The position numbers and the translations under genes are program-made. From the NCBI RefSeq assembly GCF_024372725.1, contig NZ_VOUA01000002.1, forward strand, positions 248,001-312,000: 64,000 bases of DNA, read 5' to 3'. This document shows positions 48,080 to 56,485 of this stretch, in pieces (the first letter of the stretch is position 1; each line of letters begins with the position of its first letter). The notes under the pieces are model-generated. The model made no database searches. It was not told where the DNA came from and saw only the letters and a program-made list of their open reading frames with translations. This DNA is from Methanosarcina sp. KYL-1. GTDB taxonomy: Archaea > Halobacteriota > Methanosarcinia > Methanosarcinales > Methanosarcinaceae.

Positions 48080-49414
48080 ATGTCAAAAGGGGAGAATGAA
48101 ACCTTAAGGCCTGCTTTCGGAGGGAAAACTTCCGGAAAATGCCGTGTGCTCGGAAATGAGGAGAACCCCGGAGAAGGGCTCCTCTTCCTTGGAAACTATC
48201 TGGCGCTTGACCGCTCAAAAGGAGCCGCCGTCTACCTGGACGCCCTGAAACCCCATGCAGTGCTTATCTGCGGGAAACGGGGGTACGGGAAGTCCTATAC
48301 CATGGGCTGCATACTGGAAGAACTTGCCCTGCTTCCTCCTGCCCTCAGGGAAAAACTTGCAGCTTTTGTCATTGACACCATGGGAATTTTCTGGACAACA
48401 ACCCAACCCAACACACTCGAAGCCGGGAAACTCAAAAGCTGGAACCTTGCACCTGCAGGCCTAGATGTCGAAGTTTTTGTGCCTGCAGGGAGAGTTGAGG
48501 CTTACAGAAAAAGAAACATCAGGGCCAACCCATTCTCAATCTCAATCCGGGAACTTTCCGGGAGCCAGTGGTGCAGGGTCTTCGGGACCGAAGAGATATC
48601 CCCGCTGGGAGTCCTGGTGGTAAGGACTATTGAGACCCTGAGAAAGGAAAAGGAAAAATATTCCTTTGAGGACATCGTAAGCGGAGTGCTCCGGGATGAG
48701 CGCTCGGACCAGGCTTCGAAAGGGGCCGCAGAAAATTATTTCAGGGCTGTGGATGCCTGGGGAGTGTTTTCGGAAGAGGGGACCCCCCTTTCGGAACTCG
48801 TATCCGGGGGAAAGACCTCGGTCCTTGACGTAAGCACCCTTGAAAACGAAAACGTCTGTGCCGCCGTGGTATCCATCATGGCAGGCAGGCTTTATGCAGA
48901 GCGGCTTGAGGCCAGGCGGGCGTATGAGAAGAAGCTTATGGGAGAAAAACAGGAGGGAAAAGAGTTCCCTATGGTCTGGCTCTTTATAGACGAAGCCCAC
49001 CTCTTCGTGCCCGCAGGGGGTGAGAGCCTTGCCTCGGAGGTGCTGATCAACAGGTGCCTCAGGCAGGGCAGGCAGCCGGGCCTGTCCCTTGTCCTGGCAA
49101 CCCAGAGGCCCTCAGGCCTGCACACGGACGTGGTCTCCCAGAGTGACCTCCTGATCTGCCATCGCCTCACCGCAAGCGACGACATCCTGGCGCTTGAGGC
49201 TTCCCGCCCCCTTTACATGCAGGAAGGCATCCAGGCATATATCAAAAAAATGGGAAGCGAAAGGGGAGCTGCCCTGATAGTGGACGACCACTCCGAATCC
49301 GTCCACCTGGTCCGCATCCGCCCCAGGAGGAGCTGGCATGGGGGAGGAGACCCGGGAGCTTTTGTGCCCGGAAAAGAGGGAAAACAAAGAGAAACAGCAC
49401 CAATCGAACCATAA
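48080..49414 (+). CDS. HerA-like / DUF87 ATPase
   Basis: A 444-residue ATPase of the HerA-FtsK superfamily. Walker A is GKRGYGKS at 65-72, Walker B is MVWLFIDEAHLF, and the sensor motif is LSLVLATQRPSGL followed by SQSDLLICHRLTA. A central insertion (about 140-255) is helical. HerA proteins move DNA in repair or segregation, and DUF87 relatives act in other DNA transactions. No NurA-type nuclease gene lies beside it, so the exact role is open. The gene is preceded by its own promoter. Confidence 0.82.
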   Translation: MSKGENETLRPAFGGKTSGKCRVLGNEENPGEGLLFLGNYLALDRSKGAAVYLDALKPHAVLICGKRGYGKSYTMGCILEELALLPPALREKLAAFVIDTMGIFWTTTQPNTLEAGKLKSWNLAPAGLDVEVFVPAGRVEAYRKRNIRANPFSISIRELSGSQWCRVFGTEEISPLGVLVVRTIETLRKEKEKYSFEDIVSGVLRDERSDQASKGAAENYFRAVDAWGVFSEEGTPLSELVSGGKTSVLDVSTLENENVCAAVVSIMAGRLYAERLEARRAYEKKLMGEKQEGKEFPMVWLFIDEAHLFVPAGGESLASEVLINRCLRQGRQPGLSLVLATQRPSGLHTDVVSQSDLLICHRLTASDDILALEASRPLYMQEGIQAYIKKMGSERGAALIVDDHSESVHLVRIRPRRSWHGGGDPGAFVPGKEGKQRETAPIEP

Positions 49415-51332: not shown

Positions 51333-51338
51333 GCGAAA

Positions 51339-51364
51339 ATGCCCTTTCGGGCATACTTTTTTTA
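51339..51364 (+). terminator. Hairpin terminator after leuB
   Basis: ATGCCC-TTTC-GGGCAT (51339-51354) followed by a run of eight T residues, six nt after the leuB stop. Confidence 0.8.
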
Positions 51365-51486
51365 AAAATTCCTTAAATTGCAGGCCCTGGAAAGATTCTT
51401 TTTCCGGGGATTTTTCCTTTTGCAGGTTTTTCCTGCTTACCATATTTCTTTTCGATTAATCCTTCCTGCGGGTTTTTTCTACGAGT

Positions 51487-52227
51487 TCACTTCTTTCCCT
51501 GATCACTGGTTTTTTCGTTTTCGGACTTATTCATTCTGCCGGATTTAAACCTCAGGCATTCTTTCAGGTTCTCATCGTTGTACATTAAAAAAATCGCCAC
51601 CCCCAGCAAGAAGTAAAGCGCAGAAGCGAGATACCTGAACCACAGGCTGCCAATAAGGGCAAAACTGCCTGCACCGAAATCGGAGGATAAAATCCCGTAT
51701 ACACACAGAAGATAGATACAGAAAACGCAGAAAGTGGAAACCAGTTCCGTGAAAGCGTACACAGCACACCTTTTAGGGCTTTTTAGAAGCCATCTTTCCC
51801 AGCCCAGTTCGGGGTATTCCTTGATGAAAGAAGATTCCAGTTCACGGATATATTCCCCGGCATTAATTATGGAAAGCCGCTCCCAGTGGTAGAGGCTCAT
51901 GAAAGAAAGGATAATAAGAGGCAGGATCAGGAAGAGGGGATACAGGCTGTATTGAAAGGCAAGCCCGAGCAAAGTACCCGTGCCTGTGACTTCGAGAGCC
52001 AGGATCTTATATTGCTTATCCATCTTACCCAGTTCTTCTGCCCGCAGGGACCTGAACTCCTCAAGGATAAGGTCATGCTCAAAACTCTTTTCCTTATCTC
52101 CCCTCTCATCCTTTTCATCTGCTCCCCACCCTTTCGGAATTTCCTCTTCTGGGATGTTCCACCCCCCCTTTCGCTGGAATAATCAGGGAGTATTTTCTGT
52201 CTTTGAAGATAGATTATTTCTATCCAT
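51487..52227 (-). pseudogene. Multi-pass membrane protein with an in-frame TGA at codon 15
   Basis: The frame starts with an ATG at 52227 that overlaps the upstream gene by 8 nt, reads MDRNNLSSKTENTP, meets TGA at 52183-52185, and then stays open without further stops for 231 codons. The part after the TGA starts with a hydrophilic stretch (about 16-68, PEEEIPKGWGADEKDERG and HDLILEEFRSLRAEELGK) and joins an in-frame ATG at 52023 (MDKQYKILALEVTG). Four hydrophobic segments follow as two hairpins (about LGLAFQYSLYPLFLILPLII, TELVSTFCVFCIYLLCVYGI, FALIGSLWFRYLASALYFLL). Either a nonsense mutation, readthrough, or restart at 52023 (178 residues). Function unknown; part of the cassette with the next two genes. 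Confidence 0.6.
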
Positions 52228-53431
52228 AAAAATCAAGACACTTATATTTTCTACACAGATTGTAATCAATATCATAGCATTTTGGCTCTGAAAACAATCC
52301 ACGAGTTTTCAGAATCGGCTTTCCATCTTTGACCTCAAGGTAAAACACTGTATTGGCAAACCATAGAAGATATTCTTCGAAAAACTTATTTTGTAGGGTA
52401 TTGAGTCGAAGAATATAAAGCGAAGATACTTTGTTTTTTTCCTCCCAAAACATATTATGCCTGAGATACTGGATGGCTATCTTTTCATCTGTAAAGCACA
52501 AAAAATCTGACAATGCGTCATAGACTACACAAATACTTTCACATCTTTTGTTCTTGAGGAACAGGAGTGATTTTTCGTAGAATTCGTTTAAAAGATGAGG
52601 GTTTCTTGGATCAGCGACTAAATAACCTTTATCAATTGTGCCCCCCCTCAACCGATTTGTAGAAAAAATAGAATTGATAAAACTTTTTAATGAGCCGGGG
52701 TTTTCGGAGCTTTTTAGTGACAGAGGGGTAAAGCAGTCAATAATGACTACATTATTGAGCGGAAGAGAACTGGCTACAAAATTGGGATTCTTCTGCTTAA
52801 TTTTATTTATTATCTGATCACTTATATGCTCATGCGGCCTGGTGAATGTGAAATATATTACACCGGTGCGTCCATTATTAAGAATAGCGTTTGCAACGAA
52901 TTTTTGTGCGATGCTCCACGGCCTCCAACATTCATCGGCTGCCAGGATTAACGGATACAGGCCCTTCTTCTTTCCTGGCTGTTTATTATGGGTTGCCCCA
53001 GGCCACCCTTTTTCAGACTCATCATTTGCTTCATTGATTGCAGCGTCAATGCAGTCTGACCCAAAAGAATCCTTGATAAAATCGTGGAATTCAAGCCCAT
53101 CCCTTTTGGAGAATTGAATGAGTTCAAGATTTAGTACATTGTAAAATATTCTTACAACAACAAAAAACACAATCACCCATGTAATCAGCCCAATTATAAA
53201 GAAAATAGCTGCTACATCCAAATTAAGTATAAGCTTCAAGTGGATGAGAATAGAGGAAAACCACAAAAAAATCAAACAGGTGGATAAATCTTTTCTCCAT
53301 CTCACAAATGCCTGCCTGCCCAGTACAAATGCAATTAAAAGCGTCAAAATAGAGGTGATAAGTTCCACCAGGTCTGTAAGAGCTTCATAATTAATATCCA
53401 GAGCTTGTAAAGTTTCGATGACTGATATCAT
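52220..53431 (-). CDS. Membrane-anchored RecA/KaiC-like protein with degenerate P-loop
   Basis: A 403-residue protein not assigned to a named family. Three membrane segments occupy about 22-42, 50-70 and 73-97. The soluble domain follows the KaiC/RecA strand pattern: LYPLILAADECWRPWSIAQK where the P-loop should be (no GKT/S), FVANAILNNGRTGVIYFTFTR, a strand NNVVIIDCF, a Walker B-like ESICVVYDALSDFLC, and a final LLWFANTVFYLEVKDGK like the KaiC C-terminal strand. ATP hydrolysis is therefore doubtful; it may be a sensor or scaffold. ATG overlaps the upstream gene's stop (ATGA), so translation is coupled. Composition is AT-rich compared with flanking housekeeping genes, hinting at transfer. Confidence 0.6.
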   Translation of the reverse strand: MISVIETLQALDINYEALTDLVELITSILTLLIAFVLGRQAFVRWRKDLSTCLIFLWFSSILIHLKLILNLDVAAIFFIIGLITWVIVFFVVVRIFYNVLNLELIQFSKRDGLEFHDFIKDSFGSDCIDAAINEANDESEKGWPGATHNKQPGKKKGLYPLILAADECWRPWSIAQKFVANAILNNGRTGVIYFTFTRPHEHISDQIINKIKQKNPNFVASSLPLNNVVIIDCFTPLSLKSSENPGSLKSFINSIFSTNRLRGGTIDKGYLVADPRNPHLLNEFYEKSLLFLKNKRCESICVVYDALSDFLCFTDEKIAIQYLRHNMFWEEKNKVSSLYILRLNTLQNKFFEEYLLWFANTVFYLEVKDGKPILKTRGLFSEPKCYDIDYNLCRKYKCLDFYG

Positions 53432-53976
53432 TGAATTTTCACTTCTATTTTCCCTTCTGTCTTACATGCACCAGCTTCACTAGGACATGCTGAGATGGCA
53501 ACTGTGCAATTTTTGAGGACGTAAAAGCTTACCGAATCACCTTCCTTTACCCTTGATGTTCTGGTCTTGAACGAAAAGTCCTTGCAATCAAGCTCGAAAT
53601 CCATGAACAGGTTTATTGTGCTGGGAAGATTTGGGAAAGGAACCCCGAGAGCAGAGGCTAAAAGATCCCTGCAACCATTCTTATCTTTTCCAAATTTTTC
53701 AGCATACAATTTTCTTCTGCAACCTGGATACAGAATATTTGTGTCAGCATCAGAATTTATTGACGTGACCCGAAGAACCCCTTCCTCGTTTGAATCGAAC
53801 AATTCATCCCCGCACTTCAGAACGAACCTGCGTAGCCTGTCAAGGGTTATACCCTGGTGATAACCAAGAAAAACCAAATCAGCTAACTGCCCCGCACCAA
53901 TACAAGAAATTGATATGTTCTGGCCCTTTAATACTACAACTGCCCTTGCTTCTCCTTTATCTAAAGTGAACTCCAA
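53428..53976 (-). CDS. DUF1989-like protein
   Basis: A 182-residue protein that fits the DUF1989 (urea carboxylase-associated) pattern: VVLKGQNISISCIGAGQLADLVFL near the start, then CGDELFDSNEEGVLRVTSIN, CRDLLASALGVPF, INLFMDFELDC, RVKEGDSVSFYVLKNCTVAISACPSEAG. The family is a beta-sandwich with conserved cysteines; its reaction or ligand is not settled as far as I know. The apparent start is TTG at 53976 with GAGGTTGG upstream. It is the first gene of a three-gene minus-strand cassette and overlaps the next gene by 4 nt. Possibly the soluble sensor or enzyme that works with the membrane proteins. Confidence 0.62.
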   Translation of the reverse strand: MEFTLDKGEARAVVVLKGQNISISCIGAGQLADLVFLGYHQGITLDRLRRFVLKCGDELFDSNEEGVLRVTSINSDADTNILYPGCRRKLYAEKFGKDKNGCRDLLASALGVPFPNLPSTINLFMDFELDCKDFSFKTRTSRVKEGDSVSFYVLKNCTVAISACPSEAGACKTEGKIEVKIQ

Positions 53977-54415
53977 CTTTCCAACCTCAAGGCATTTATT
54001 AGCATTTTTATTAGAAGATATAACAATAAAGTTACTTATACTGACGCGCCGATTTTAAATCTGACATTTCTGGTCTTCAAAAAAATACAGACTCAATCCT
54101 AAGCACTTGAGAATGGATCGTGAGTTATATATATGAGTATATATAAAAACCATTTAAAAATAGTTTTTGTAACAGTGTTTCTAAAGACAAATCCTGATAA
54201 ACACTATCATTGAATTCAAATATATTTATCAAAACAAGGATGAAACACCGTTGGTGATAGGAGAGCTTCTGGCTCGCCCGGGAGAAGCATGAGCAGAATC
54301 TGGAGGGGCACTGCCTCAGTTCAGAGACTGCAATAATCTTTAATTATATATCTCGTGAATTTAAATATAGAAAAATACAATTTTCAAGTAACCGTCAATT
54401 AGTGTGGGGGAGAAA
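53977..54415. other. Divergent intergenic region with repeat-like and leader-like DNA
   Basis: AT-rich, with TATA-like TTATATATATGAG and GTATATATAAAAAC (about 54124-54150), a CRISPR-repeat-like piece (54230-54246), then a GC-richer segment (54250-54330) able to form GCTTCT/AGAAGC and GCTC/GAGC stems, and TATA-like AATTATATATCTC before the flavin reductase. No gene seen. Confidence 0.45.
54230..54246 (+). CRISPR. Possible third CRISPR-repeat remnant (3' half)
   Basis: CAAAACAAGGATGAAAC matches the 3' half of the repeat-like copies at 55126 and 55193 (AAAACAAGG, then TTGRAAC) with one base missing. Too short to be sure on its own. Confidence 0.3.
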
Positions 54416-55114
54416 ATGCCTTTTGAAACCTGTGTAGTTGAGACTATCCAGAGAACGCCTGATATAAAGAGTATAAGATTTGAAAAGCCTCAGGGGTTTC
54501 GTTACCTTGCAGGCCAATACATATTCATAACTCTGGGCGGCGGTCCTGAAAAGATGACAAAACATTTTACGTTATCCAGCAGCCCTACTGAAGGCTTCCT
54601 TGAGATAACCAAGAGGCTGACAGGCCATCCCTTTTCAGATGCTCTGGCAGGCCTGAATTCAGGTGATAAGGTTTCCATAAGGGGACCTTATGGCGAGTTC
54701 ACCTTCCAGGGTGAGTATGATAAGGTAGGAATGCTTTCGGGAGGCATAGGCATAACTCCACTGCGAAGCATGATCAAATATTCGATCGATAAGGAGCTAG
54801 GTACCAGCATAATCCTGCTTTACTCAAACAGCCGCGAGAGTGATATAGCCTTCATGGATGAGCTGGAAGGTATGCAGAGGGAAAAACCTGACATAAAAGT
54901 AATTGAAACAGTCACCCGACCCGGACAGGAATGGAAGGGAGTGACCGGGAGAATCAATGCCGAAATGGTAAAAAAATATATGCCGGATTACATAGAACGC
55001 ACATTCTATACCTGCGGCCCACCGAAGATGGTAGAGGCAATGGTTTCTCTTATGAGGGAGCTGGGAGTGCCGGAGGAGCAGATAAAGCAGGAAAATTTTT
55101 ACGGCTATGATTGA
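54416..55114 (+). CDS. Ferredoxin-NADP reductase-like flavoprotein
   Basis: A 232-residue FAD/NAD(P)-binding protein of the FNR superfamily. The FAD domain has AGQYIFITLG and the flavin-binding HFTLSSSP (the RxYS motif is changed to HFTL); RGPYGEF follows. The nucleotide domain has LSGGIGITPLRSMI and the C-terminal TCGPPKMVEAMVSLM. No 2Fe-2S domain is attached, so it needs a partner electron carrier such as a ferredoxin or rubredoxin-like protein. GGGGGAG lies 4 nt before ATG 54416; the frame also opens at GTG 54404. CRISPR-repeat-like sequences lie on both sides of the gene. Confidence 0.85.
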   Translation: MPFETCVVETIQRTPDIKSIRFEKPQGFRYLAGQYIFITLGGGPEKMTKHFTLSSSPTEGFLEITKRLTGHPFSDALAGLNSGDKVSIRGPYGEFTFQGEYDKVGMLSGGIGITPLRSMIKYSIDKELGTSIILLYSNSRESDIAFMDELEGMQREKPDIKVIETVTRPGQEWKGVTGRINAEMVKKYMPDYIERTFYTCGPPKMVEAMVSLMRELGVPEEQIKQENFYGYD

Positions 55115-55125
55115 TTCCTTAGCAA

Positions 55126-55229
55126 TGTCCTGAACAATATCCACCAAAACAGGATTGAAATTCTTTTTTTTAAGACGCAGAAATCCTGAGATATCCGCGA
55201 GCAATATCCACTAAAACAAGGTTTGGAAC
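55126..55229 (+). CRISPR. Degenerate two-repeat CRISPR remnant
   Basis: Copy 1 (55126-55161) and copy 2 (55193-55229) share CAATATCCACYAAAACA and GGWTTGRAA and are separated by 31 nt, a spacer-like distance. Copy 2 is 37 nt long, starting ATCCGCGAGCAATATCCAC. I recall that Methanosarcina arrays use 37-nt repeats of similar sequence ending AAAACAAGGATTGAAAC; this was not checked. The copies differ from each other at several sites, so the array is inactive or a relic. No cas gene is in the window. Confidence 0.55.
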
Positions 55230-55302
55230 TCGGGAAGTCATACAACCCTCCTTTTCAGTTGCCTTTAAATCCCATAAACCTCCTACTATTTCCCAGATCG
55301 AC

Positions 55303-56343: not shown

Positions 56344-56472
56344 AATGTTTCAGAATTGAAATGTTTCAGAATTGAAATGTTTCAGAATTGAAATGTTTCA
56401 GAATTGAAATGTTTCAGAATTGAAATGTTTCAGAATTGAAATGTTTCAGAATTGAAATGTTTCAGAATTGAA
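56339..56472 (+). repeat. Eight-copy 16-nt tandem repeat at a stop codon
   Basis: ATTGAAATGTTTCAGA occurs eight times without change, plus a partial ninth copy. The first copy contains the TGA stop of the methyltransferase gene (56341-56343). Each unit can fold on itself (TGAAA-TG-TTTCA). Confidence 0.97.
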
Positions 56473-56485
56473 AATAGAAAAAAGA

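Follow-up and report, generated by a model that had tools for sequence, protein, structure and literature searches.

The minus strand of the window (the whole 64,000-nt stretch of Methanosarcina sp. KYL-1 DNA analysed here) carries two overlapping genes, here called A and B, which form a pair that is rare among methane-producing archaea and moves horizontally. We tentatively assume, with a probability of roughly one in three (about 0.35), that they constitute a mobile two-gene accessory module, in which a zinc-binding protein (A) would act as a sensor and a membrane protein (B) as an effector, likely in defence or stress. This reading draws on the adjacency and overlap of the two genes in four loci, on their conservation at the protein level, on their AT-rich composition relative to their hosts and on their differing, variable surroundings. 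No described system that pairs a DUF1989 protein with a membrane KaiC-like protein appeared in the literature that was searchable (most subscription journals were outside reach), in agreement with the earlier note, which knew of none for its trio.

Organization of the gene pair in the window

The open reading frames considered are as follows.

53428..53976, minus strand: gene A, DUF1989-family protein of 182 aa, TTG start at 53976, stop at 53428
52220..53431, minus strand: gene B, membrane protein of 403 aa, ATG start at 53431, stop at 52220
51487..52023, minus strand: gene C, membrane ORF of 178 aa lying outside the cassette, ATG start at 52023

According to the open reading frames of the window, B starts before A stops and the two genes share 4 nt (ATGA, 53428-53431), exactly as the earlier note had it. 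The same note placed a third gene, C, in the cassette with an 8-nt overlap with B, which the sequence contradicts. The upstream ATG of C at 52227 is followed by MDRNNLSSKTENTP and then by an in-frame TGA (52183-52185), so that the overlap would require read-through of this stop, and the real distance from the end of B to the start of C (ATG 52023, the first standard start in the C frame after the TGA) is 196 nt. Moreover, a homolog of C in genome G007 has a conserved N-terminal segment (KESFALEEYKSLRG...) which aligns upstream of ATG 52023, where the frame of C back to the TGA offers no standard start; C is thus probably a truncated or decayed gene. A real three-gene system would need C to be read through the TGA or to begin at a non-standard start codon; the location of C, which follows B and shares its strand, would agree with it. 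We give such a system hardly any credence, since C was not found beside the pair in the other three loci (G034, Methanocrinis and G018), its one clear homolog stands alone in G007, a genome without A or B, and the TGA blocks the upstream start. C was therefore rejected as a third member, and what is left of the proposed cassette is the recurring A-B pair. In G007, the C homolog (locus L031, 1667-5771) converges on a gene for a 1134-aa protein, whose HEAT-like repeats match the HEAT models of PADLOC and whose N-terminus looks NTPase-like by reading of the sequence.

Distribution, conservation and mobility

The genomes compared were 31 from the genus, 238 from the class and a sample of 393 from the phylum. 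B is present in 4 of the 238 class genomes, namely that of the window (G000), G034, G018 and G199, the last being Candidatus Methanocrinis natronophilus (hereafter Methanocrinis), and close relatives of A (>360 bits) are found in the same four. The chance that two independent sets of 4 in 238 coincide is about 1 in 10^8 (hypergeometric, with shared ancestry ignored), and the co-occurrence of the two genes is far beyond chance. The holders belong to three genera in two families. A and B overlap by 11 nt in Methanocrinis and by 4 nt in the three other loci (window, G034 and G018). Between loci the proteins share 67–76% identity for A and 46–54% for B; dN of A is 0.15–0.26 with dS above 1 or saturated, and both genes are under purifying selection. 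The recurrence with variable flanks that the earlier note set as a check on a trio holds for the A-B pair and fails for the trio with C.

The GC content of A (42%) and B (37%) in the window is well below the 54–56% of the neighbouring core genes, which bears out the AT-rich composition reported earlier, and it is low in all three intact hosts (34–42% for A and 31–37% for B). The locus in G018 is in decay, since several stops interrupt B and the open frame of A begins at CTG, with no standard start at the usual place.

In the phylum sample there is no further full-length B, and only distant DUF1989 proteins were found. Matches to B in G051, G241 and G416 were weak and partial and do not represent A-B loci; the G241 match is to an ORF of the RecA type whose Walker A motif is intact. 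One scan of the genome contigs used peptide patterns of the window B, a design that would miss distant relatives. The phage records and viral contigs searched held no relative of A or B, and a search of PHROGs with both gave chance-level matches only. In PADLOC, neither A nor B of the window had a match, and the Methanocrinis B had one weak match. Furthermore, none of five plasmid DUF1989 regions (halobacterial DUF1989 loci being left out) is annotated with a B-like partner.

Gene A encodes a DUF1989 protein without the usual His-Asp motif

The sequence GAGGT lies at 53988-53984, seven bases before the TTG start of A, and in alignment this start coincides with the ATG of A in Methanocrinis. 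The assignment of A to the DUF1989 family, already made from the letters alone, was confirmed by its match to PF09347 (47.4 bits in the window and 56.4 bits in Methanocrinis, against a Pfam gathering score of 27). The model of A superimposes on DUF1989 crystal structures with VIA Z scores of 16–17. In alignment with outgroups, the zinc-site cysteines C86, C102 and C164 are invariant, and so is D33. The three cysteines of A correspond to C263, C279 and C343, the zinc-binding cysteines of TMAO demethylase (PMC12560246). A therefore has in common with the family (PF09347; PDB 3siy, 3oru and 3di4) the fold, three similarly spaced zinc cysteines and D33. In contrast to family members such as TMAO demethylase and the carboxyguanidine deiminase subunits, all four A proteins have Thr-Asn where a His-Asp motif occurs in all five aligned outgroups and in PDB 3oru, a motif typical of the DUF1989 members aligned and not formally defining the family. 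In addition, A has a Lys three positions ahead of the second cysteine, where TMAO demethylase has H276, it ends after the DUF1989 domain and so lacks the C-terminal GcvT-like domain, it has no urea or guanidine operon around it, and it is always paired with B.

Within the class, the sequences closest to A are stand-alone DUF1989 proteins of a sister genus (g4), found in five genomes with E-values of about 1e-20 to 1e-22. They have the same cysteines and likewise miss the His-Asp motif. At the two loci viewed (L147 and L149) they have no B partner and adjoin ilvC-type and other genes for branched-chain amino acids, whose order is the same at both.

These features bear on a possible, though doubtful, metabolic reading, according to which the substrate of A, as a zinc enzyme, would be a guanidino- or amine-type metabolite, and B would serve it as a regulator or scaffold bound to the membrane. 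Small nitrogen compounds are the substrates of those DUF1989 proteins whose function is known, carboxyguanidine deiminase being one of them. The DUF1989-containing TMAO demethylase is another (PMC12560246). The accessible parts of the literature on DUF1989 proteins and carboxyguanidine deiminase deal mostly with metabolism, and those parts contain nothing on archaeal defence. Plasmid relatives of A adjoin genes for amidase, arginase-family protein, isochorismatase and polysaccharide deacetylase, and D33 as well as all three zinc cysteines are retained in A itself. However, A has lost the His-Asp motif of the five outgroups and 3oru, there is no metabolic operon around it in any locus, and its scores come nowhere near the curated cut-offs of the UAAP2/UAAP1 and TMAO demethylase models: 15.0 against 284.7 for TIGR03424 and 12.4 against 205.95 for TIGR03425 (carboxyguanidine deiminase/UAAP), and, for the Methanocrinis A, 24.6 against 1100 for the TMAO demethylase model NF053776.

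Gene B encodes predicted membrane helices followed by a putative pseudo-KaiC domain

The features of B predicted from its sequence and model are listed below.

53123..53389, minus strand: three predicted membrane helices, residues about 15-38, 43-68 and 74-103
52268..53065, minus strand: KaiC/RecA-type soluble domain, residues about 123-388
52916..52945, minus strand: invariant segment L-A-A-D-E-x-W-R-P-W, residues 163-172, at the Walker A position

The helices followed by a KaiC/RecA-type fold sustain the previous description of B as a membrane-anchored KaiC-like protein. Judging by the positive charge of the loop that joins helices 1 and 2, the C-terminal domain probably faces the cytosol. 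With a model of low confidence (mean pLDDT 50, built with 3 sequences), the best Foldseek E-value is 1.5e-5, and the VIA Z score is about 15 over 180–207 residues to KaiC, PH0321 and PH0284; since this alignment covered only chains ranked by Foldseek, the absence of other folds from it is uninformative. A sequence search of the PDB with B gave no match. As judged from the model, B would share the fold and the order of strands and helices with KaiC and the archaeal RadA-like ATPases (KaiC, PH0284, PH0321 and FlaH). It differs from them in the three membrane helices in front and in the loss of both Walker A and the catalytic Glu pair: the pattern GxxxxGK[ST] has no match and GK[ST] occurs nowhere in the three B proteins, while Thr-Arg or Ala-Arg stands at what we take to be the position of the catalytic glutamates of KaiC.

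A toxin-antitoxin-like pair, in which B would be a membrane toxin and A its upstream, translationally coupled antidote, would agree with the position of A before B and their 4-nt overlap. The G018 locus, where B is destroyed by stops and the frame of A is open, shows the order of decay expected if B were harmful. This is, however, one decayed locus only, the A of G018 also lacks a standard start (CTG), and we know of no antitoxin that carries a DUF1989 domain; we regard this reading as unlikely.

Genomic surroundings of the pair

In much of the genus, a 3-isopropylmalate-dehydrogenase-like gene, a tRNA-methyltransferase-like gene and alaS are kept in this order (the names of the flanking genes were read from their sequences, without database matches). 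The spacing between the first two, which is the interval 51333-55302 in the window, ranges from 0.23 to 5.5 kb among congeners and its contents differ by species, which makes this site a genus-wide insertion hotspot. The interval also contains the following element.

55132-55230, beside the tRNA-methyltransferase-like gene: degenerate CRISPR-like remnant, two repeats 67 nt apart

The earlier note took this remnant as a hint of an accessory or defence/signalling island. The remnant does exist, but it lends no support to that reading: at least four relatives without A and B (L118, L119, L123 and L126) carry it on the same side of the methyltransferase gene, so that it predates the insertion of the pair, and as an ancestral element it was rejected as a hint. 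A fifth relative (L120) has a single repeat of it. The two-repeat element is a conserved vestige across several related genomes. Elsewhere in the window, a near-perfect tandem repeat of about 8 copies of a 16-nt unit (ATGTTTCAGAATTGAA) occupies 56345-56473, between the converging tRNA-methyltransferase-like gene and alaS, and a stand-alone gene for a HerA-type ATPase (DUF87; HerA and mad8 models of PADLOC) lies at 48080-49414.

In G034, the pair adjoins a type I methyltransferase gene, and a transposase-like ORF and a phage-portal-like ORF, both named by eye, lie within about 11 kb. In Methanocrinis, the order is cmr1-cmr6-cas10c-cmr4-cmr5-cmr3, then the pair, then a CRISPR array, cas2 and cas1. 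The view of the pair as an accessory cassette stands, since its loci are variable or defence-rich.

Relation to type III-C CRISPR-Cas

The Methanocrinis locus raises the question of whether the pair could be an ancillary membrane effector of type III-C CRISPR-Cas. Here the pair follows cmr3 of a complete III-C operon by about 200 nt on the same strand and precedes the CRISPR array and cas2-cas1. This locus (L018 / L007), with its complete operon, array and nearby cas2-cas1, is unlike most III-C loci, which are reported to be without arrays (PMC12669027). Type III membrane effectors such as Cam1, Csx23 and Cam2 combine membrane helices with a cytosolic domain (PMC11229360), as B is predicted to do, and one A-B locus likewise lies beside a type III operon. 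In contrast to these effectors, the pair has no CARF or cOA-sensor domain in family searches, no cyclase-active Cas10 nearby (the Methanocrinis Cas10c lacks the GGDD motif) and no consistent link to CRISPR. Cas10c occurs in 19 of the 238 class genomes, among which Methanocrinis alone also carries the pair, and no A or B lies near Cas10c in the other 18 III-C genomes (19 loci examined). Moreover, the other three A-B genomes have no Cas10c, that of the window shows no match to the Cas10 palm domain, and cas1 loci are far from the pair in G034 and on other contigs in the genome of the window. With one of the four A-B loci linked and none in the III-C loci of the 18 other genomes, the link to III-C is a single case, and a role as III-C effector is unsupported and quite improbable. 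III-C loci are reported to have neither cyclase active sites nor known effectors (PMC11229360), for which reason the Methanocrinis locus had deserved this test.

A possible sensor and membrane effector

Defence or stress is the most likely single purpose of the pair, and a defence role is put forward here as a hypothesis. It is only moderately favoured over a metabolic one because the surroundings of the pair are variable and sometimes defence-rich. In the sensor-effector module that we prefer, the pair would move horizontally among Methanosarcinales-type archaea, and A and B would be produced together. A may be a cytosolic zinc-binding protein working with B. Both proteins have lost the catalytic motifs of their families, which suggests binding rather than turnover; A would more likely bind or sense a ligand, or carry out an altered chemistry, and for B an assembly gated by a ligand or a partner would be more likely than a motor driven by ATPase activity. 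The KaiC-like domain of B could receive a signal from A, assemble and relay it to the three membrane helices, which may anchor B or, on activation, disturb the membrane, by analogy with the membrane effectors of defence systems. Counting against this module are the weak model of B, the total of four loci, in one of which (G018) B is broken by stops, the scarcity of PADLOC matches (none for the window and a single weak one for the Methanocrinis B), the lack of relatives in the phage records and viral contigs searched, and the metabolic appearance of the characterised and plasmid-borne DUF1989 proteins. The more specific proposal of a two-component membrane immunity module, made of a DUF1989 zinc sensor and a membrane pseudo-KaiC, mobile in methanogens and occasionally beside III-C, is in our opinion a long shot.

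To our knowledge, neither a DUF1989 protein nor a membrane-anchored pseudo-KaiC has been described in immunity. Should the pair prove to act in defence, immunity would gain these two protein types, together with a two-gene archaeal system that is small and testable. Should it prove metabolic, a DUF1989 protein missing the motif of its family would be tied to a membrane partner. Either way, the reading of the window is corrected from three genes to two, which lie in an insertion hotspot with an older CRISPR-like remnant.
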